Positions 1,510-23,615 of a stretch of DNA of 64,000 nucleotides are shown here, in pieces. The position numbers and the translations under genes are program-made. The notes under the pieces were generated by a model that worked only from the letters and a program-made list of their open reading frames with translations, had not been told where the DNA came from and ran no database searches. Where the stretch lies: contig MJAN01000006.1 of NCBI GenBank assembly GCA_001875255.1, positions 1 to 64,000 on the forward strand, read 5' to 3'. How positions within the stretch are numbered: position 1 is the first letter of the stretch; each line of letters opens with the position of its first letter. The DNA is from Candidatus Sabulitectum silens. Lineage in GTDB: Bacteria > Fermentibacterota > Fermentibacteria > Fermentibacterales > JCC-6.

Positions 1510-2900
1510 TCACTTCAGCAGTACCAGTTTTTCAATGTGTTCAGTGCCGGATGAAGTGACCCTGAGCAGATAACACCCCGCGGGAAGCCGGGAGGTGTCC
1601 AGAATGATGGTATCCCTCCCGGAGCCATTCAGCACGTTTCTTCCAGCGCCGTCGAACAGCTCCGTCTGGACCATAGCATTCCCGGGAAGGCTGACATGAA
1701 GGGTGGATGAGAAGGGGTTGGGATACACCGCTGGAAGAGGTTCAACAGGCCGGCTGTGCACATCCAGGCCGGTAACGTCGTTTCTTTCAACGAAGAACAC
1801 ATCCGGCTGGGAACCCTCTCTGTATGCAACCCAGTATCCGTCCTCCACGCTGCAGACGGCGATATCCCCCGGGGACAGGGGATTGAGTCCCGACTTCAGC
1901 AGGTAAGCATAGTCGTTCCAGCCGTTCAGGTAGTGGCGGCAGTAGAGGTCACCTCCGCTCTGCCACACAAGCAGCAGGCCCGGGTCCTCGGGGTTGGCGG
2001 ACATGGCCGCCGCCTGGAGCCTGGACGGCCCCTGTCCCGGGAAGGGGGAAGTGGAGGTGAAACCATCCATGCAGTTGTGAACGGAAAAAAAGACCGTTCC
2101 GGTGGAATCGCTCCACAGGAAGAGCGCTTCATAGTAGTCCGAACCTGATGCCAGCAGTTCCGGTTCGGTTGACTCGGTGGTGGAACAGGTGAGGGTGTCG
2201 GCGGTGAGGTACACCGATGAAGCGGTGGTGTTGTGGCACTGGGCCGCTATGCGCCAGGAGCCGGGGGTGGGGGGCATGGGCGAGCCGGATATCCCCTGCC
2301 TCTGTGCCATCACAGGGCAGCCGAAGTAGTTCATCACGGGAAAAGTGACGTTGTGAACCAGGTCATCAGGATACCTGGAGGAAGGCAGGGGGTAGGGGTC
2401 ATAAAGCGTAAGGGAGTCACCCATGGTAAGTTCACCGGTTTCGGAAACGGTGTATTCCCTGGTAACCCACATGAACTCTTCACCGCTGCTCAAGTAGGTT
2501 GCCATATATCTGCTGAGAAGGCCCCACCCTGGGATGGCGGTCCTTCGGAGCAGCCCCGGTACACTCCACTCGTAGTCCTGCGGGAAGACAAGGGAATCCT
2601 CTGTGGGCATATCATTCCAGGGATCCAGGGAGTAAAGCACATTGTCCACCGCGGCGATGAGATGCATTCCCTGGGAGGGGTTCAGCGTTATGGTGGTAGA
2701 TACACCATGATAGGATTCCGGGAATGCCCGCCAGGTTTCATTCACTGTGCCGTTGAACCGCCAGATGAAGCCGGTGTCGCTGTTGTCCAGGCATGATACC
2801 CACAGATAGTCGGTTCCGTCGTCGGCAGGGGTAATGGCAAGGTTCGAAGCGCCTGAAGGGAGGCGGCGAAAAGTGCGGCCACAAGCAGTGAGTGTTTCAT
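1510..2900 (-). CDS. Secreted protein with T9SS-type C-terminal sorting domain
   Basis: C-terminus VYPNPFSSTLHVSLPGNAMVQTELFDGAGRNV...LPAGCYLLRVTSSGTEHIEKLVLLK; signal peptide MKHSLLVAALFAASLQA is read from ATG at 2900 in another frame. Confidence 0.7.
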
Positions 2901-2984
2901 TACACACTCCAATCTCTAAGTCCAGAAGACCATTGTAAGCCCATACTTAGTATAATAGTCTTCAATGAGGAAAAGGAGGAGCTA

Positions 2985-4415
2985 ATGGCCAGAGAAGTAG
3001 ATGTTGCCATAATAGGCTCGGGAACCGCGGGGCTCTCGGCCCTGGGGCAGGTCAGGAAGAGAACGGACAATTTCGTGATAATTAACGACGGCCCCTACGG
3101 AACCACCTGTGCCCGGGTGGGCTGTATGCCTTCCAAGGCTCTGATAGAAGCGGCGGATATTTATCACTCAAGGCATCTCTACGGTGAAATGGGCTTCTAC
3201 CTCAACGGCAGCGTTGCCGTGGACGGCAGGGCGGTGCTGAAGAGGGTGAGAAACCTCCGCGACAAATTCGTAAAGGGAGTCAACAGGCCACCGACAGCCT
3301 CACGGATGCCCAGAACATTCCAGGTAGGGCCAGAATACTGGCCCCGGACCTCATCGAGGTAAATGGCGAGAGGATACGCACCGGCAGGCTTATCATCGCC
3401 ACCGGTTCAAAACCTGTGGTTCCGGGCCCCTGGAAGGAACTGGGAACCGGCGTTCTCACCAGCGATACCGTTTTCGAGATGGAAGACCTTCCTGAAAGCC
3501 TTCTTGTAGTGGGTCTCGGGGCGATCGGCCTTGAGCTGGCCCAGGCATTCAGCAGGGTGGGAGTGAACGTGACCGGTTTCGATGCCCTTCACACCATTGG
3601 CGGAATCACCGATCCCGAAGTGGCCAGGTCCGCCGTAAAGATCATCGGCGGGGAGTTTCCTATACACCTCGGAGCGAAGGTGAACCTTGAAAGTCTACCC
3701 GGAGGGAAGATAAAGGCATCCTGGAGCGGAAACACCGCAACTGCTGAAAAAGTACTGGTGGCTGTGGGCAGAAAACCCAATATCGATGATCTAGGCCTTG
3801 AGAACCTCGGAGTTGAGCTGGACGAGAACGGCCTTCCCGGATTCAACCAGCACACCCTTCAGGTGGGCAGCCTTCCGGTCTTCCTTCCCGGTGACGTGAA
3901 CCGCAGGGCCCCGATACTCCACGAAGCCGCCGACGACGGCCATATAGCCGGATACAACGCAATGCTGAAACCGACAGCGAACATTGCTTCTGCAGAAGGA
4001 CCCCATAGGTATCGTTTTCTCACATCCGAACATAGCCTATGCCGGCAGCAGGTTCGCCGACCTGGAAATGGATGAGGCCGTTACCGCAAAGGAGGATTAC
4101 ACCGATCAGGGAAGGGCTATCACCGCCGGGGAGAACCGGGGGCTGATAAAGCTTTACGCCTCGAAGGTCACGGCAGAACTGCTCGGGGGGGAGATGGCCG
4201 CTCCACAGGCTGAGCATATGGCACACCTCATCGCCTGGGCCATACAGAGGGGGCTCACGGTCTTTGAGATGCTTGAGCTGCCCTTTTACCATCCTGTTGT
4301 GGAAGAAGGGATTCGCGGCTGCTTGAGAAAGCTTGCCGGTCAGATAGAGAAGAGGGAGTCCGCACCTGAAGTGCCCTCTGCAGGAAGCTTCCACTGGAAT
4401 GAACTAGTGGGCTGA
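2985..4415 (+). CDS. Dihydrolipoyl dehydrogenase-like flavoprotein (frameshifted)
   Basis: VAIIGSGTAGLSA FAD motif, GTTCARVGCMPSK redox-disulfide motif, LVVGLGAIGLELAQ NAD motif, C-terminal dimerisation region; split over three ORFs; RBS AGGAGG before ATG 2985. Confidence 0.85.
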
Positions 4416-4439: not shown

Positions 4440-6931
4440 ATGCTGGACCACTTCGACCCAACTGACCCGATATTCACCTTCGCCGTGGCCCTGGCCGCTG
4501 TCCTTCTTGTTCCCATGCTTTTCAAGCGGCTGAGGCTTCCTGACATAGTCGGTCTGATACTGGCGGGTATAGTGCTTGGTCCCCATGCCACCGGGATCAT
4601 CCATGAAGGCAGCTTTGTTCAGCCATTCGGCACGGTGGGGCTTCTCTACCTTATGGTAATGGCGGGCCTTGAAGTGGATATGCACAGGTTCCAGAGGCAG
4701 AAGCGGGACAGCGTGATATTCGGAAGCATTACCTTCCTGATACCCATGCTTATCGGCACAATGGGCGCCCTTTTCATACTGAACATGAACTGGGCGGCAG
4801 CCCTCCTTCTTGCAAGCATGTTCGCATCCCACACCCTTCTGCCCTATCCCGTGGTTCAGCGGCTGGGCCTTGTGAAGGAAAGGGTTGTAACCACCGCGGT
4901 GGGTGGAACGGTATTCACCGATACCCTTGCGCTTCTTGTTCTGGCGGTGGTTGCGGAATCCACCAGGGGGGACATAACCGGTCTGTTCTGGGTACGAATG
5001 GCGGCGCTTCTCGCTCTTTATATCGCCTTTGCCTTCTATACCATCCCACGGGTTGGAAGATGGTTCTTCAGGAAGGTATCTGCGGAGTCAGTTCCAGGCT
5101 TTCTTTTCGTTCTGGTCTTTGCCTATGCATTCGCCGCCATAGCGCCAATAGCCGGTCTTGAGCCCATTATTGGCGCATTCCTGGCGGGGCTGGCCCTCAA
5201 CCTTCTCATCCCCGAGCACAGCAGACTTATGGTAAGGCTGAACTTCGTGGGTGAGTCCTTCTTCGTTCCATTCTTCCTCATATCCGTTGGGCTGATGGTG
5301 GACCTTGATCTTCTTCTGAGGTCCCGCGGTGTATGGATAGTCCTTGTGTTCATGGTAACCGCCGCATATGCAGCCAAGTACCTGGCATCAATGCTTTCCG
5401 GACGGATCCTGGGTTTCACGAAGGACGAAAACGGCCTTCTCTACGGTCTCAGCGTTAATCAGACCGCGGCGACCCTTGCGGCGGTGGTGGTAGGAGTACA
5501 GCTGGGAATATTCCGTGAGGACGTTCTTAACGGAACGATACTCATGATCCTGGCCACCTGCACCGTGGGACCCATGCTCACTGAAAAATTTGGCAGGAAA
5601 ATCGCCCTTACCCGTGAAGCGGATTCCCTGACTAGCTCCGGAGCCCCGGAGCGGATACTGGTTCCCATAAGCTCCAGGAACCAGATCGAACCGCTGATGG
5701 CCCTTGCCATGATGGTGAGGAACGCCGCCAGCGGCCAGCACCTCTATCCTGCCATAATAGCACCGGACACCCACGACAGCGAGGAACAGATAGCAGCGTC
5801 GGAGAAGCTTCTTGGTGAAGCAGTGGTAATAGCCGCCGAGGGCAACACACCTGTCCAGCCGGTCACCAGGGTGTCTGCCAGTACGGTGGAGGGGCTCATG
5901 GGAGCATCAAGGGACCTTCGAATATCAACAATCCTGGTAGATGAGAACTACGGTATGACCGGCGACATGGAGCATCTGCCCTCCAGGATCGCCGATCAGG
6001 GAAGGCACCTGGTGATAAGGTTCATGAACCCGGCGCTGATCAACACCTGTTCAAGGTTCCTGATCGCCATTCCTCCCCTCATTGAAAGGCAGCCTGGGTT
6101 TTCGGTGGCCTGGCGGGTTCTGGAGAGGCTCATTGAACAGGCCGGTGCCGGCATCTCCATTCTGGCTTCCCGGACAACCCTCAGGGCAATGGGAAAACAG
6201 AAGGAGTTTCCCGGGTACTTTCCCGGGCGGAGAAGAAGCAGGTGGATGACTGGCATGACATGCACAGGGAGATAACTGACATTTTTCTCCCCGGTGACTT
6301 GCCCGTCCTCTTCGCAGCACGCTCCGGCAGGCTTGCCTGGCAGCCGTCCCAGGAGAGGCTTCCTGACCAGATATCAAGAAAGCTCGGCAACCCTCCCCTT
6401 CTGATCATCCATCCTTCTGAGATGAAGTGGGAAGCCGACGCTGCGGGGGAGACCCCGGCGGTGGATTTCCGGGCCATCTTTCCCCACGAAAACCTGTTCC
6501 TGAACCTGAAGGGTAGCTGCCCCGAGGAGGCGGTGAACACCATGCTTGATTCGGCATACCACGGCCACACTCTTCCGGAGGGACTAAGGGAAGACTGCCT
6601 GCGGCAGCTTGAAGAATCGCCCCTCTGGCTTTCAGGCGACTGCGTTCTGGTCCATACCCACAAAGCTTCTCCCCCTGCTCCCATGGCCCTGCTGGCCACC
6701 GGGGAAAAGGGTTTTGCCGTGGAGGGGCATGGCGGCAGGGCGGAGGTGCTGCTCCTGCTTCTGGGCACAGGGGCGGAATCACCGGAGGAACACCTGGGCA
6801 GACTGGCGGTCATTGCCTCCCTTTTCCACAGGGAAGGAATGGTGAAGACACTGATAAACGCCGGAAGCTATGATGAAATTCTTAACGAACTCAACAGAAT
6901 GGACGAAGAGAAGGGACAGGCAGGACGATGA
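4440..6931 (+). CDS. CPA2-type cation:proton antiporter with C-terminal UspA-like region (frameshifted)
   Basis: multiple TM segments, LPDIVGLILAGIVLGP motif, then cytosolic domain continued in ORF 6242-6931. Confidence 0.8.
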
Positions 6932-7568
6932 CCATCCACTCATCTGGAGTATTCTGGGAAAGGGCCATACGCCGATCGATCCGGAAACGGTGGACTTCTC
7001 GAAGAGCAAGCCCCATGAATGCCTGGCGCCATTCTGTGACGCACATGTGGAAAAGGGCGCCTGTGTACTTGACCTGGGCTGCGGAGGGGGCAGGAACAGC
7101 CAGTTCCTGGCGGAGAAAGGTTTCAGTGTCCACGGCCTGGATATATCCCCCGCCGGTGTGGATCTTACCAGGGAACGACTGAAAAGGGCAGGGCTTGCCG
7201 GCACATTCAGTGTGGGCGAGTTCACCGCCATACCTTACCCGAATAACAGCTTTTCTGCCATCGTATGCATTGCCGCTCTGGATCATGTTACCCTTCCCGG
7301 TGCCGGGAAGGCACTGGGAGAAATGCGCCGTGTGCTGAGACCCGGCGGGAAAATGCTGCTGACATTCGACCCCCCGGGCAGGGATGAGGAGATCAAAGGG
7401 GAAGCCACCGTACAGGAAGACGGCAGCCTCTACTTCATCAGGGGCGAACAGGAGGGGATGCTCTTTCGCAGGTATACCGACCGGGAGATAGAAGACCTGA
7501 TAGGCAGGAGCAACATGATCAGCTTTGAATACACCGATGAAGGTGAAAGGGTGGTCGCGTGCCTATGA
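6870..7568 (+). CDS. Class I SAM-dependent methyltransferase
   Basis: VLDLGCGGGRNSQFLAEKGFSVHGLDISPAGV; LGEMRRVLRPGGKMLLTF; 5' start uncertain. Confidence 0.8.
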   Translation: MMKFLTNSTEWTKRRDRQDDDHPLIWSILGKGHTPIDPETVDFSKSKPHECLAPFCDAHVEKGACVLDLGCGGGRNSQFLAEKGFSVHGLDISPAGVDLTRERLKRAGLAGTFSVGEFTAIPYPNNSFSAIVCIAALDHVTLPGAGKALGEMRRVLRPGGKMLLTFDPPGRDEEIKGEATVQEDGSLYFIRGEQEGMLFRRYTDREIEDLIGRSNMISFEYTDEGERVVACL

Positions 7569-7576
7569 ACGGACCA

Positions 7577-10079
7577 TCAGGGAGCTATCCTTACCGCCAG
7601 CAGGGTGAAGTCGTCTTCGTACTCCCTGGAACCGTGATAGTGGCCAACCCTTTCCTCGATAAGGGCAAGTAGTTCCGGAAGGGGGACAGTTCTGTTCCTC
7701 GAAGCGATCTCAGCCAGCCTCTTTTCGCCGAATTCCTCTTCAGCTGAGTTCATGGCCTCGGATACGCCGTCGGTGTACATCAGTATCATATCACCGTTCT
7801 CAAGCTGTATCTCGCCCTCCTCATAGGTCACCGAATCGGAGATCCCGAAGAGAAGGCCGCCCCTTGAAAGGGTCTTTACCCTTCCATCGTTCTTCACCAG
7901 GAATGGCGGATTGTGGCCGGCATTCACATAGCGGATGCATTTCCGCACCGGATCCACGCAGAGCATGAAGAAGGTTATGAACATCTCGGAGGGGGTGTTC
8001 TCGTAAACGATATGGTTTATGCGGGAGGCGGATTCGTAGAGCCTTGCTCCCATGGCCTGTGTGGTTCGCAGTGATGCCTGAAGGTTGGCCATTATCAGCG
8101 CCGCGCCGACCCCCTTGCCCGATACGTCCCCGATGGAAAGCACTACCCTGCCGTCTTCCAGGGGGATCACATCGTAATAGTCCCCGGCAACATCGAGGCA
8201 GAACTTGATGAAGGGGCTATTTCGATCCCCTTCACACTGGGAATGTTCTGGGGAAGCAGACCCCTCTGAATGCTCCTGGCCACCCGGAGCTGCTCCTGGA
8301 GTTTCTCCTTCTGCAGCTTTTCCCCAAGCAGTTCCAGGTTTCCGCAACAAGGGCAGTCTGGGCGCTGAAGCTCTGAAGCAGCTCCAGTTCTTCGGAGGTG
8401 AAGTCCTCGCCGTTGGTCTTGGTGCTTATCACCAGGAATCCCATCAGACCGGAGGTGGTCACCAGGGGAAGAAGGATGGCGCTCTTCCTTGTTATGAACC
8501 AGTCCCTCTGTTCCCTTGATAGAAGGATCTTTCCACTGGCTATCATCTCATCGAAGAGCAGGGGATTATCCTTTGCCTCTAGCCTTCGAAGGAACTCATC
8601 CCCGGGAATGAAGGGGGTGGGTTCGCTGAGGTCACCGCAGAAGAAACCCTTGCCGTCCACCCTTATCACGGGATAGATCCTCTCGGCGGAAAGACCGTCC
8701 GCCAGTTTCTCCTCAAGCTCCTTCCAGAACTTCTCACCCTCGGCCCTGACCATGCTTGAAGCCAGGAAGTCCTTCATGAGCCGGCGAAGCTTCACCGCTC
8801 GGGTAGAAGTATTCCTCGATCCGGTGCCTTATCTTCTTCTGGGCCCACATGAAGACCATGGCAAGTGCAATTCCGGTAACGAGCACGGCGTTCTGGGAAT
8901 CAAGGCCCACCCTTGAAAGCACGAACTCCACAAGGGCCCAGAGGATGGCCACGAAAACGGCAAGGAGCGCAAAGTTCACCGTAAGGAACCTGGTGCCCCG
9001 TTTTATCCTGCCTTCCAGGTGAAGAAGCCTGTACTTGCCGATGGCGAATCCAAGGGTTATGGGCACCCCCAGCATCAGCAGGAAAATGCAGTTGGTAATT
9101 AGTATCCGGCTCACCACCGGCAGGGTGAGATACCACTGCCCGAAGAGAACCACAGTCCAGATGAAAAGCGTATAAACAACAAGCCCCGGTGCTGAGCCCA
9201 GCATCACCAGCCTGGTCTGTCTCTTTTCAAGTTTCACAACGGTTTGCCGGTGGTGTCTGATAAGCAGGGCATAACCCATGCCGAGCATCAGCGTCCGAAC
9301 GATGAGACCCGGCATGATGTGCTCCAGCCCGCCGGAAACATTAGAGTAGATCATCAGTGCGGTGGGAAGGAAGATCAGAAGGTTGAAGAGAAGTCTCCTT
9401 CTGGCGTAGACGGGGTTTCTCCTGGGGAACAGCAGCTGCAGCTTCAACCACAGCGCCGGGGTAAAAGCCGCCAGGGAAGCTGCTCCCATAACAAGCCAGG
9501 AGGGCAGGTTGAATCCGGCGTATACATCGGAGATGGTTCCGAAGGAAACGGTCATTTCCATCGCCAGTGCGAAGCAGAACAGCGACAGGGTGAGTACAGC
9601 TGATGAATTCGGCCGCCTGAGATATGCCCATATACCCACGATGATAAGCCCGATGACGATCAGGGTGCGGAGAAGCACCACCGTCCAAACCTGTGCCTGG
9701 AGGGCCGGGGGGATGGTGTGGGTTGAGATGGTCGTGGTGTAGATCGAGTCTTCATGGAGAAACTCTATCTCGAACATCTGTCCCCGGGGCGTATCGGTTC
9801 CGAAAAGACTGAAGTAGTTGTTCTGGCTTGCAAGCAGTCCGCCCACGGTAAGAAGGGAGTCGCCACGAACGGGGTAGGGGGGGACACGAAGTCGTCAATG
9901 TTCACTTCGCTGAAAAGTGCATGGCCGGTGGTATCGTTGAACACGAACAGGCTCCACATGTCACTCATGTTAGAGAAGTTGATCACCTTGGTGAAGTCCC
10001 GCGCCATGTACACCAGGCAGAACAGAACGGTGAACACCGTTCCGGCAACCATCAGAAATGAAGAGAGCTTTCTGTTCAT
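7577..10079 (-). CDS. Membrane sensor with GAF-like and SpoIIE/PP2C phosphatase domains (frameshifted)
   Basis: ORFs 9765-10205, 8734-9846, 8232-8795, 7577-8350 are consecutive; several TM segments; GDYYDVIPLEDGRVVLSIGDVSGKGVGAALIMANLQ; MILMYTDGVSEAMN. Confidence 0.8.
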
Positions 10080-11286: not shown

Positions 11287-11853
11287 ATGAGCCGAAGAGA
11301 TGACCGAGTATGCCCGGTAGCCCTCCACCGAAGCCTTAACAACCCCTTCAGGAAGCTCATCCACAACCCGAAGAAGATCCTCAGCCGGTACATAAAGGAA
11401 GGCGACATAGCCATAGACATTGGCTGTGGCCCGGGCTTCTTCACCATCCCCATGGCAGAACTCACCGGCAATACAGGCAGAACCATAGCCGCCGACCTCC
11501 AGCAGGGCATGCTGGACATCATAAAGAAGAAGATAAAGAACAAACCCATAGAGAAGGGCATCATCCTCCACAGAACCACCGAGACCAATCTCAACCTGGC
11601 CATCAAGGCCGACTTCGCACTCCTCTTCTACATGGTGCATGAAGTCCCCAACCGGGAAGAGCTCTGCCGCCAGGTGAGAACCACAATGAAACCCACCGGC
11701 ACCGTCCTCATCATCGAACCCCCGGTTCATGTAACGAAGAAGGACTTTGAGGAAACGAAGCAGGCAGCCAGAAAAGCCGGTTTCAGGGTGGAGGAGGGGC
11801 CGAAGCTCTTCCTGGACAGAACCGCCATACTCAGGCCGGTCAAGGAAGAATAG
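11287..11853 (+). CDS. Class I SAM-dependent methyltransferase
   Basis: AIDIGCGPGFFTIPMAELTGNTGRTIAADLQQGML; MVHEVPNREELCRQVRTTMKPTGTVLIIEPP. Confidence 0.8.
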   Translation: MSRRDDRVCPVALHRSLNNPFRKLIHNPKKILSRYIKEGDIAIDIGCGPGFFTIPMAELTGNTGRTIAADLQQGMLDIIKKKIKNKPIEKGIILHRTTETNLNLAIKADFALLFYMVHEVPNREELCRQVRTTMKPTGTVLIIEPPVHVTKKDFEETKQAARKAGFRVEEGPKLFLDRTAILRPVKEE

Positions 11854-16001: not shown

Positions 16002-16451
16002 ATGCTGAGAAGCAATGTTGAAAGGAATCCATTGCCCATAACCGTCACCGCAGCCTGCGCCCTTAAGAAAGACTCGGTCCTTCTCTGTCGCAGGGCCATG
16101 AACCAGAAGCTTGCCGGGTTCTGGGAGTTTCCAGGGGGAAAGGTCGAGGAGGGGGAGAGTTACGCTGAGTGCCTTGCCCGGGAGCTGTTTGAGGAGCTGG
16201 GGGTGGAAACGGTTGTTGGTTCAGTTGTTGCTGAGAGCACCCATGCTTATGACTCGTTTTCAATTCGGTTGGTTTTGCTGGAGACAACGATTGTAGGTGG
16301 TGAGATAACACTGTCTGTCCATGACAGGTATGAGTGGGTGCCGGTGGGGGAGTTGCTTGGCTGGAACTCGCCCCTGCGGATGTTCCATTGGCTCGTTCAC
16401 TTATGGAGTTGCACGGGGAATCTTGTGGATAAGCACGACCCTTCGAGGTGA
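16002..16451 (+). CDS. NUDIX (deoxy)nucleoside triphosphate pyrophosphohydrolase, MutT-like
   Basis: GKVEEGESYAECLARELFEELGVE NUDIX box; FWEFPGGK. Confidence 0.85.
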   Translation: MLRSNVERNPLPITVTAACALKKDSVLLCRRAMNQKLAGFWEFPGGKVEEGESYAECLARELFEELGVETVVGSVVAESTHAYDSFSIRLVLLETTIVGGEITLSVHDRYEWVPVGELLGWNSPLRMFHWLVHLWSCTGNLVDKHDPSR

Positions 16452-19400
16452 CTGACCATCTCGTTGCAGGGGCGATTCTGATCCCTTCTGCCGAAGCTGC
16501 TTTCCGCGATCAACAATGCCACTGAGATTGATATTGCAGTTGCCTTTGTTCAGTCTACCGGGCTTAGACTGCTGTATGATGCCCTGGTGGATGCTCTTGG
16601 GGCGGGGGCGAGGGTCAGGTTCCTCACCGGGACTATCTCTATGTAACGGATCCCGAGGCACTTCGCACTCTGTTGCTGCTTAACGAAATGGGTGCCGATA
16701 CCCGGATCTTTGAGAGCGCCGGCAGGAGCTTTCACATGAAGGCATATATGTTCGTGAAGAGTGCTGGTGGTTCCCCCGTTGCCGGTCGTGCCTTCGTGGG
16801 TTCAAGCAACATCAGCCGTTCAGCACTTACACACGGGCTTGAGTGGAACCTCCGGGTGGATATGGATGACAATCCCGCCCGGTTCGCTGAACTTCGGGAG
16901 AAGTTCGAGAGGCTGTATTCTTCCCCCAAACCCGGGAGATCACCAACGCCTGGATCGATGCCTATGTTTCACGGCGCCCTTCATTCAAGAGTGCCGAAGT
17001 TCAGCCAGGTACCGATCAGATGGCTTTGCCTCCCAAGCCGAATCACATTCAGTCGGAGGCTCTTCGCCTGCTAGCGGAGACCCGGGATTACGGTGACTCA
17101 CGGGGACTCGTAGTGATGGCAACCGGTACAGGAAAAACCTGGCTGGCGGCCTCGACTCATATGCTTTCCGGGCTAAAAAGGTTCTCTTCGTAGCCCATAG
17201 GGAAGAGATACTCAAGCAGGCCGAGGAGACCTTCATCAGAATACGGCCTGAAGCCAGCATAGGGCATTACTCCGGCAGCGAGAAAACAATGGATACCGAC
17301 TTGCTCTTCGCATCGGTACAGACACTGGGAAAGCTCGGTCACCTGCGCAGGTTCAGTGAAGACCACTTCGACTATATAGTTGTGGATGAGTTTCACCACG
17401 CGGCTGCCAGAACCTACCAGAAGCTTTTAGCCCACTTTTCACCGAAGTTCCTGCTGGGGCTTACGGCTACTCCGGACAGGACCGACCAGGCAGACATTCT
17501 GGCTCTGTGCGATGACAACCTGGTTATTCAGAGAGATCTTTTCGACTCGATTCGGATGAGTCTGCTTTGCCCCTTCGACTACTATGGAGTTGCTGACCGC
17601 AGTGTGGACTACAAGGACATCCCATGGCGCAACGGGAAGTTTGACCCGGTGAAGCTGGAGAACAAACTGGCAACAGCAGCAAGGGCAAATCATGTTCTTG
17701 GTGAATGGTATTCCCGGAAGCAGTCGAAGACCCTGGCATTCTGTGTTTCCATCAAGCATGCGGACTTCATGGCTGAGCACTTCAACCGCGCCGGTATTCC
17801 CGCCGTGGCGGTGCATAATCGTTCCGAGGTCCGAAGAAATACCGCTTTGAGAATGCTTCGAGATGGCGAGATCGAGGTGCTTTTCTCTGTGGATCTCTTC
17901 AATGAAGGCATAGACGTTCCCAGCATTGATACCGTTTTGATGTTAAGGCCAACGGAATCGAAGATCCTGTTCCTGCAGCAGCTTGGCAGGGGTTTGAGGA
18001 TACACAGGGAGAAGAACCATCTCACGGTGCTGGACTTCATTGGAAACCACATCAGCTTCTTTAACAAGTTCGAGGCTCTCTTCAAGATAGATAAGACGAA
18101 CAGGGCGAGAAGAGAGTTCCTGGAAAAGGTTGAATCAGGGGCTCTAGAATTGCCTCAGGTTGCTACATGAACTACGACCTTGAATCAATTGAGTTCATGA
18201 AGAACCTCATGAAGACCAATACCCACACCCAGAAGGACTTCTACTTCTCCCTGAAGGATTCACTGGGCAGAAGACCAACCCTTTCGGAGTATTTCCTGGC
18301 TGGAGGGGGAATTTCTGCACTTCGAAGTGAGTACGGAGGCTGGTTCAACTTCCTTGAGGCGCAGGGTGAGATCGAGCCCGGTTTCATTGATGTACTGGGG
18401 TCTCATTCCGGTTTTCTCAGCGAACTGGAATCCTCAGCGATGTCGAAATCCTACAAGATGATACTCATGGAGGCCTTCATTGACCTTGACGGGTTCTCCG
18501 ACCCACCATCTGTTGAGGATCTGTGCAGAAGGTCGTACAAGGTAATGTCCCGCCGCATCAAGTGCCAGGCGGATCTGCCGGAACGGTTCAAAGGCGGCTT
18601 TGAACGGTATAACGTAATTGAGAAACGCTGGATAACGTACTGGAACAGCAATCCCATTAGTGCCTGGACAGGGGAAAGGCGAAGGTCCGGGGAAACCTCA
18701 TTCAGTCTGGCCGGAAACAGGTTCATTTACAGGGGAGAAGTGACGACTGAACAGATCGCAGACCTGGAATCCATGGTACTGGAAACAGTCAATTACAAAT
18801 ACGAGCAGTACCTGTCCAGAAGAACCCGGGTTACCGGCCCCGCCCATATTGATGCAGAATCATCCAACCTGATCGAGGTTCCTTTCTTCAGCGACCTGCA
18901 GATCGCCTGCGGGCATTTCAAATCCAGCTCACACGACCTGGATAGTTTGCATTACAAAACCCTTCCGATGTCCTATGGTAACCTGAACCCGGCAAGGCAT
19001 TTCATCGCAAGAGCCAGTGGAAACTCAATGAATGGCGGCAAGTCACCCATCAGGGACGGGGATTATCTGCTTCTGGACCTTGTGACCCCTGAGAGCGCAG
19101 GGAGCATCAGCGATCAGCTTGTTGTGATCGAGAAGCAGGATGAAACCGGTGACGATCAGTACCTTCTTCGCTATGTGAAGAAGCTGGGAAATGGCAACTA
19201 CATTCTTCAGGCCTGGAATGAAGACTATCCCGATATGCCTGCAACAGAGGACATGGTGACCCGTGCCCGGGTTAAGCAGGTGATCGATCCCCTTGACCTG
19301 ATACTTCACACGAAAACGAAGACAAGAGAGATTCCCGGGCTCTTTGGCCTTGAGTACAACCAGGGCAACTGGCAGGCGGGGCATGTCTGCCCGAAGGATC

Positions 19401-19752
19401 ATCCTGATCAGTTCCTGCTGGTAACGCTGAACAAGCAGGGTCAGCAGGAATCCCATAAGTACCATGACTACTTCATCGATGACAGGACATTCCACTGGCA
19501 GAGCCAGAGGTCTACAAAGCCAGGTTCCAAGAGGGGAATGGGAGTGATCAAACACAGGGAAAACGGTTCGATGATCCACCTGTTCCTTCGAAAGAACAAG
19601 TTAATCGGGGGAAGGCAGCCCCTTACACCTATCTCGGTACTGCGGATTACCAATCACATTCCGGCTCAGAACCCATGGATGTGGTTTTCACACTGGCAAA
19701 CCCCATTTCAAAGGAGGTTGCCGCGGAGCTTGAGATTCAGGGTACTGGGTAG
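16448..19752 (+). CDS. PLD-like nuclease / DEAD-DEAH helicase / S24-like peptidase / DUF3427 fusion protein (frameshifted)
   Basis: PLD-like FHMKAYMF...GSSNISRSALTHGLEWN; Walker A MATGTGKT; DEFHH; QQLGRGLRIH; S24-like SGNSMNGG..IRDGDYLLLD and RYVKKLGNGNYILQAWNEDYPD; DUF3427-like LFLVTLNKQ/FHWQSQRSTKP/APYTYLGTADYQSHSGSEPMDVVF; GTGA overlap with MutT stop. Confidence 0.8.
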
Positions 19753-22649: not shown

Positions 22650-23615
22650 ATGAAAGCAGTTCATTACAGAAGGTACGGTTCGCCGGAAGTTATCAGGGTT
22701 GAGGATACGGATGTACCGGTGCCCGGGGGTGACGAGGTGCTGGTACGTGTACGCGCGGCGTCGTTGAACGCCTACGACTGGCATATGCTCACAGCAGACA
22801 TCTTCCTGGTGAGGTTCATGGGAGGGGGATTCTTCAAGCCGACCGATCCCAGGCTGGGCACCGACGTGGCCGGCACAGTGGAGGCCGTGGGCAGTGGAGT
22901 AACCGACTTCAAAACCGGCGACCGGGCCTCGGCATGGTGAAGGGGGGCTTCGCAGAGTATGCCTGCGCTCCTGCCCGGGCATTCGTTCCAATCCCGGTAA
23001 ATGCCTCCTTCGAGTCCGCGGCGGCTATGCCCCTCGCCGGTGTTACTGCATTGCAGGGGCTTCGGGATGCCGGGGGAATCTCCCCGGGGCAGGAGGGTTC
23101 TGGTGAACGGGGCCTCCGGAGGCGTGGGCACCTTTGCGGTTCAGATAGCGAAGTCTTTCGATACCGAGGTAACCGCAGTGTGCAGCACCGGGAACCTTGA
23201 TCAGGCCAGAGAGATGGGAGCAGATTTCGTGATAGACTACACCCGTGAGGATTTCGCCTCGAACGGGGTTTCCTACGACCTTGTGTTCGCCGCCAACGGC
23301 TACCGGACCCTTGGCGCATACAAGCGTTCCCTGGCTCCCAGGGGTGTGTATGTGATGGCCGGTGGAACCCCGGCACAGATTTTCCAGTCCATACTCTTCG
23401 GCTCCCTTATGTCGGAGAAGGGGGGCAGAAGGATGACGGGGTTCATGGCCAGGAACAGCAGGGCTGACCTGAGGGTGCTTAGGGACCTTTTCGAGGAAGG
23501 TAGTGTTCTGCCGGTGATCGACAGGCGGTACACCCTTGCGGAGACCGCTTCCGCCATGGAATACCTGGGGAAGGGGCATGCCCGGGGGAAGGTGGTTATC
23601 CACATGGATGGCTGA
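22650..23615 (+). CDS. MDR-family NAD(P)-dependent alcohol dehydrogenase / quinone oxidoreductase (frameshifted)
   Basis: MKAVHYRRYGSPEVIRVEDTDVPVPGGDEVLVRVRAASLNAYDW; LVNGASGGVGTFAVQIAKSF. Confidence 0.85.

Follow-up and report, generated by a model that had tools for sequence, protein, structure and literature searches.

The targets of type IV restriction enzymes are modified DNAs, and no protective methylation shields the host, which raises the genuine question of how cells carrying such enzymes escape harming themselves. Fusions of a PLD domain to a helicase are typical of nucleic-acid defence or repair, and S24 domains of the LexA/UmuD type self-cleave by means of a Ser-Lys dyad. SauUSI of Staphylococcus aureus (PDB 7clg), a restriction enzyme dependent on 5mC/5hmC, combines a PLD nuclease, an SF2 ATPase, a coupler region and a DUF3427/SRA reader. 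The reader of SauUSI has been described as an SRA domain and modelled as flipping 5-methylcytosine into a pocket formed by Asp858, Tyr831 and Trp868 (PMC7913695). Among NUDIX hydrolases, NudG (Orf135) and MutT2 hydrolyse CTP, dCTP and 5-methyl-dCTP, and NudG acts on 5-methyl-dCTP with much higher efficiency than on CTP (PMC5158307). In addition, all 23 occurrences of PDC-S07 in a survey of Streptococcus suis co-localised with RM type IV systems (PMC12813430).

The window analysed here (the whole 64,000-nucleotide stretch of contig MJAN01000006.1 of Candidatus Sabulitectum silens) harbors, on the + strand between 15828 and 19753, Pfam matches in the order NUDIX, PLDc_2, ResIII, Helicase_C, Peptidase_S24 and DUF3427. 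All the domains named in a preliminary description of this DNA (NUDIX, PLD, SF2 helicase, S24 and DUF3427) were thus found by Pfam in the order it had given, but that description had missed that the core is of the SauUSI type, that the genes are frameshifted and that most relatives have a methyltransferase partner. The features of the locus are as follows.

16002-16432, + strand: NUDIX hydrolase of the NudG/CTP-pyrophosphohydrolase type (Pfam NUDIX, 3e-18; PADLOC PDC-S07, 1e-34)
16448-16930, + strand: PLD nuclease domain, spread over several frames (PLDc_2 pieces, orthologue alignment and motifs)
16927-18155, + strand: SF2 translocase/helicase (Pfam ResIII, 2e-25; Helicase_C, 5e-15)
18158-18880, + strand: coupler region, equated with the helical coupler of SauUSI by position only
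18881-19294, + strand: S24 (LexA/UmuD-fold) domain (Pfam Peptidase_S24, 7.9e-8, above cut-off; alignments; AF2/Foldseek)
18908-18913, + strand: Cys-Gly site of the S24 domain
19025-19027, + strand: Ser of the S24 domain
19169-19171, + strand: Arg at the catalytic-Lys position of the S24 domain
19178-19183, + strand: Lys pair of the RYVKK motif put forward in the preliminary description
19295-19740, + strand: DUF3427/SRA-type modified-base reader (Pfam DUF3427, 5e-17, above cut-off)

Judged by its sequence and modelled structure, the core belongs with SauUSI among the type IV (modified-cytosine-dependent) restriction enzymes, because its motor best matches SauUSI, its DUF3427 region aligns with the SauUSI SRA reader and Foldseek matches the AF2 model of the C-terminal region to SauUSI and other SRA proteins. 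The PLD region, with a likely GTG start at 16448, carries an HxK motif (SFHMKAY) at 16727 and GSSNIS at 16799; PLDc_2 is matched in the window by two weak Pfam pieces and at 7.8e-13 in an intact orthologue. The motor bears Walker A at 17119, DEFHH at 17385 and QQLGRGLR at 17976, matches the PADLOC mREase_IV profile at 4e-79, and has SauUSI (7clg) as its best solved match (4.5e-63), as does the reader. Among S24-type relatives, the HxK motif is kept in 67 of 67 and Walker A in 66 of 67. The coupler region shows a weak HNH_repeat match (1.7e-4) under the Pfam cut-off. Kinship to SauUSI also lends support to the defence or restriction role that had been proposed for the locus.

The C-terminal region was aligned as a profile, in which DUF3427 corresponds to residues 803-919 of the SauUSI TRD. 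The AF2 model of the S24 and DUF3427 regions has a mean pLDDT of 79.5, and Foldseek matched it to SauUSI, SUVH6, LpnPI and MspJI. Equivalents of Asp858 and Trp868, mapped from the profile alignment, are invariant in 53 of 53 relatives, whereas the position of the methyl-contacting Tyr831 is occupied by His in all 53. The modification recognised by S24-type enzymes may therefore differ from that recognised by SauUSI.

Unlike SauUSI, the enzyme contains an S24 module between the coupler and the reader, is linked to a NUDIX hydrolase and, in most relatives, is also accompanied by a fused or adjacent methyltransferase. The S24 fold, suggested in the preliminary description, is corroborated by a Pfam match that passed the cut-off and by the AF2 model, to which Foldseek matched the C-terminal domain of lambda repressor, LexA and UmuD', together with a repressor-RecA complex and with lambda-repressor fragments that include the cleavage-site region; the confidence of the model in the S24 part is moderate. 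Bacterial and archaeal genomes were scanned for the module, with the best 80 of 311 relatives retained, and a phage search for it gave no match. Across 82 aligned sequences the S24 Ser and the UmuD-type C-G site are invariant, the C-G figure being subject to bias, because 81 of the 82 fit the pattern used in the search. All 40 sequences retrieved by the C-G pattern alone retain the Ser, and the pattern-free finds retain both C-G and Ser; these are the two orthologues within the genus and a pair of Pseudoalteromonas records, of which one is a broken gene. The position equivalent to LexA K156 and UmuD K97 is Arg in 82 of 82 sequences under three alignment modes, compared with Lys in 31 of 32 LexA-type controls; hhalign, which set the gap elsewhere and likewise placed no conserved Lys at the catalytic position, was excluded from residue identity calls. 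Of the Ser-Lys dyad proposed earlier, the Ser of SGNSM is thus retained as the S24 Ser (82/82). The RYVKK Lys was rejected as its partner, since it lies off the catalytic position in the alignments and is Lys in 7 of 82 sequences; the next Lys after it is kept in 80 of 82. The module accordingly resembles LexA, UmuD and lambda repressor in its fold, its C-G scissile-type site and its SGxSM Ser, but differs in the invariant Arg that replaces Lys, in a longer hairpin and in being embedded in a restriction enzyme.

With Arg at the catalytic-Lys position in every sequence and the RYVKK Lys poorly conserved, self-cleavage of the S24 domain appears doubtful. The most likely function of the domain is in regulation or docking, and the replacement of the catalytic Lys by Arg leaves its proteolytic competence uncertain. 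Some S24-type relatives (L006, L021, L022 and L051) end at S24 without DUF3427, suggesting that S24 may have its own role in targeting. We put at about even chances the possibility that S24 is a dead pseudo-peptidase whose role is purely structural or lies in dimerisation or in binding DNA or protein, perhaps for target recognition; the loss of Lys from all sequences aligned and the relatives that stop at S24 are consistent with it, but the invariance of Ser and C-G exceeds what a pure scaffold would need, even though that of C-G is search-biased.

S24-type loci, in the best 80 of 311 relatives, occur mostly in Pseudomonadota. In a tree of the PLD-plus-helicase part, the S24 type forms one clade, interrupted only by L067, in which the S24 part is encoded by a separate ORF. 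In 64 of these 80 loci (L014-L090; best 80 of 311), a class I SAM methyltransferase domain either precedes the enzyme as an N-terminal fusion or is encoded adjacently, and fusions of NUDIX to methyltransferase adjoin the S24-type enzyme in five loci; in L021 a single protein runs NUDIX-methyltransferase-PLD-helicase-S24. The methyltransferase of the proteobacterial relatives is absent from both same-genus orthologue loci and has no counterpart beside the window gene, and the methyltransferase-like ORFs of the window (6870-7568 and 11287-11853) are not adjacent to the helicase gene. Raw counts over 86 neighbours of S24-type genes, with no background set, gave six HNH_2 endonucleases and five Fic proteins, along with known defence families matched once each. 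The HNH_2 neighbours match PADLOC HNH (best 6.7e-116) and, as guessed from ORF size, lie in the downstream flank of L024, L032, L041, L077, L078 and other S24-type loci. On a Pseudoalteromonas plasmid (L006:6228-17173), a SauUSI-like enzyme ending at S24 lies side by side with an ABC-three-component system and another DUF3427 helicase. In L016, a further, partial copy of S24 plus DUF3427 (9050-9805) follows the S24-type gene at a distance of 1.7 kb downstream.

The profile of the NUDIX partner scored 131 bits against NudG and 90 against MutT, and the PADLOC profile that it matches is the PDC-S07 of the S. suis survey. Residues of the NUDIX box (GX5EX7REUXEEXGU) are invariant in 21 sequences, and NudG Asp118 is kept in 21 of 21. 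The linked NUDIX therefore shares with NudG, MutT2 and PDC-S07 the NUDIX box, the Asp118 equivalent and a strong profile match, but it does not keep NudG Arg72, and its gene is linked or fused to type IV enzymes. Being closest to CTP/5-methyl-dCTP hydrolases such as NudG, it suggests pool clean-up against self-restriction.

The conserved NUDIX linkage anticipated earlier was recovered in the homologue survey, with NUDIX adjacent or fused in several lineages. It is present in 10 of 80 S24-type loci including fusions (best 80 of 311), mostly in the clade that contains the Fermentibacterota proteins. Most betaproteobacterial S24-type relatives do not have it, and NUDIX is therefore not essential to the enzyme. 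Among 99 genomes of another class, which looks fusobacterial by gene content, 68 carry DUF3427, and 13 of 36 strong NUDIX matches lie within 4 kb of, and on the same strand as, a DUF3427 gene, nine of them within 60 bases. In addition, one genome outside the S24 clade encodes a NUDIX-PLD-helicase fusion (L156). In a relative without S24, a NUDIX domain fused to a region of ~400 aa is encoded directly downstream of the SauUSI-like gene (L106:4168-5760). Less probable than pool clean-up, though still a serious contender, is that this NUDIX sanitizes 8-oxo-dGTP or has some other general housekeeping task, or hydrolyses signalling nucleotides, its linkage being unrelated to modified cytosine. NUDIX substrates are hard to predict from sequence, the best single-sequence structure match is the RppH structure 3ees, NudG Arg72 is not retained, and many strong profile matches are unlinked to DUF3427 genes. 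However, the profile favours NudG over MutT, Asp118 is kept throughout, and linkage to type IV enzymes recurs in the other class, in the L156 fusion and in S. suis (PMC12813430), which argues against this reading.

It is unlikely that S24 still cleaves itself by means of a non-canonical base, be it the Arg or the conserved Lys four positions further along, in which case a cut at C-G on a RecA/DNA-damage signal would provide built-in restriction alleviation. The invariance of C-G, Ser and Arg in 82 sequences, the retention of Ser in the pattern-only set and of C-G plus Ser in the pattern-free finds, and the Foldseek matches to the cleavage-site fragments and the repressor-RecA complex would fit such an enzyme. 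However, the general-base Lys present in nearly all LexA-type controls is uniformly Arg, C-G conservation is search-biased and AF2 confidence in S24 is moderate. The preliminary description had proposed that auto-proteolysis could separate the nuclease/helicase from DUF3427; the Ser of that proposal stands, but the dyad is weakened and release of an effector is less plausible than a switch-off. Because S24 and the DNA reader would leave the nuclease-motor, a cut at C-G would more plausibly turn restriction off than free an effector. A more elaborate and quite improbable scheme combines a damage-sensing off-switch, in which a Ser-Arg module on RecA filaments cuts off the reader, with a NUDIX that keeps modified dCTP from the host genome; if true, a type IV nuclease, for which protective methylation is lacking, would possess two layers of self-protection.

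The reading frames of the locus were resolved by aligning the window to intact orthologues. In this assembly the helicase gene is divided into six frame pieces and the NUDIX gene into two. The helicase-gene segments derived from the same-genus orthologue alignment are as follows.

16488-16631, + strand: helicase gene, frame 3
16631-16930, + strand: helicase gene, frame 2
16927-17151, + strand: helicase gene, frame 1
17133-18155, + strand: helicase gene, frame 3
18158-19615, + strand: helicase gene, frame 2
19591-19740, + strand: helicase gene, frame 1

Frame changes in the helicase gene include those near 17150 and 19600, and the NUDIX frameshift lies near 16365. Same-genus orthologues in two other genomes are intact proteins of 1110 aa and 1111 aa, each with a NUDIX gene directly upstream and each laid out as PLD nuclease, SF2 motor, coupler, S24-like domain and DUF3427. 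The comparison with these orthologues rules out two earlier readings: the single product of ~1100 aa is intact only in the orthologues and lies in six segments in the window, and the GTGA stop/start overlap at 16448-16451 is an artefact of a shifted frame, since the frame-corrected NUDIX gene ends at TAA 16430-16432. Conserved genes elsewhere in the window, at 2892-4075 (Pyr_redox_2) and 22650-23615 (zinc-binding dehydrogenase, ADH), are likewise split across frames, so the indels are probably assembly errors rather than signs of gene decay; the completeness of the assembly is 71%. A decayed pseudogene, to which the frame changes inside the helicase gene and the one in NUDIX might point, is improbable, given that the breaks require no nonsense substitution, identity to the orthologues is ~60-79% in most segments, and unrelated window genes are broken in the same way in an incomplete assembly.

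Collectively, sequence and model comparisons make it reasonably probable that the locus encodes a SauUSI-like, ATP-driven type IV restriction system, with an S24 module that is most likely regulatory or docking and a NUDIX that most likely removes modified dCTPs. By homology, the DUF3427/SRA domain would recognise a modified cytosine in DNA entering the cell, the SF2 motor would translocate and the PLD domain would shred the DNA, with the S24 module between coupler and reader acting as a putative regulatory or docking element. The NudG-type NUDIX would remove modified dCTPs and thereby keep them out of the host chromosome, where the enzyme would attack them. The enzyme class is already known, while the S24 insert, the Lys-to-Arg change and the NUDIX/methyltransferase partnership are apparently undescribed: in the literature covered, which lay outside preprints and most subscription papers, nothing relevant was found on S24 in combination with restriction helicases, and the S. 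suis co-localisation was the only relevant find on NUDIX alongside DUF3427 or type IV restriction (PMC12813430). The S24 module, found in one clade across several phyla with an invariant Ser and Arg for Lys, represents a new restriction-enzyme element, and it also makes it possible to test if the dyad of S24 peptidases tolerates rewiring. The recurrent linkage of NudG-type NUDIX hydrolases makes pool sanitation a directly testable answer to how type IV hosts may avoid damaging themselves.
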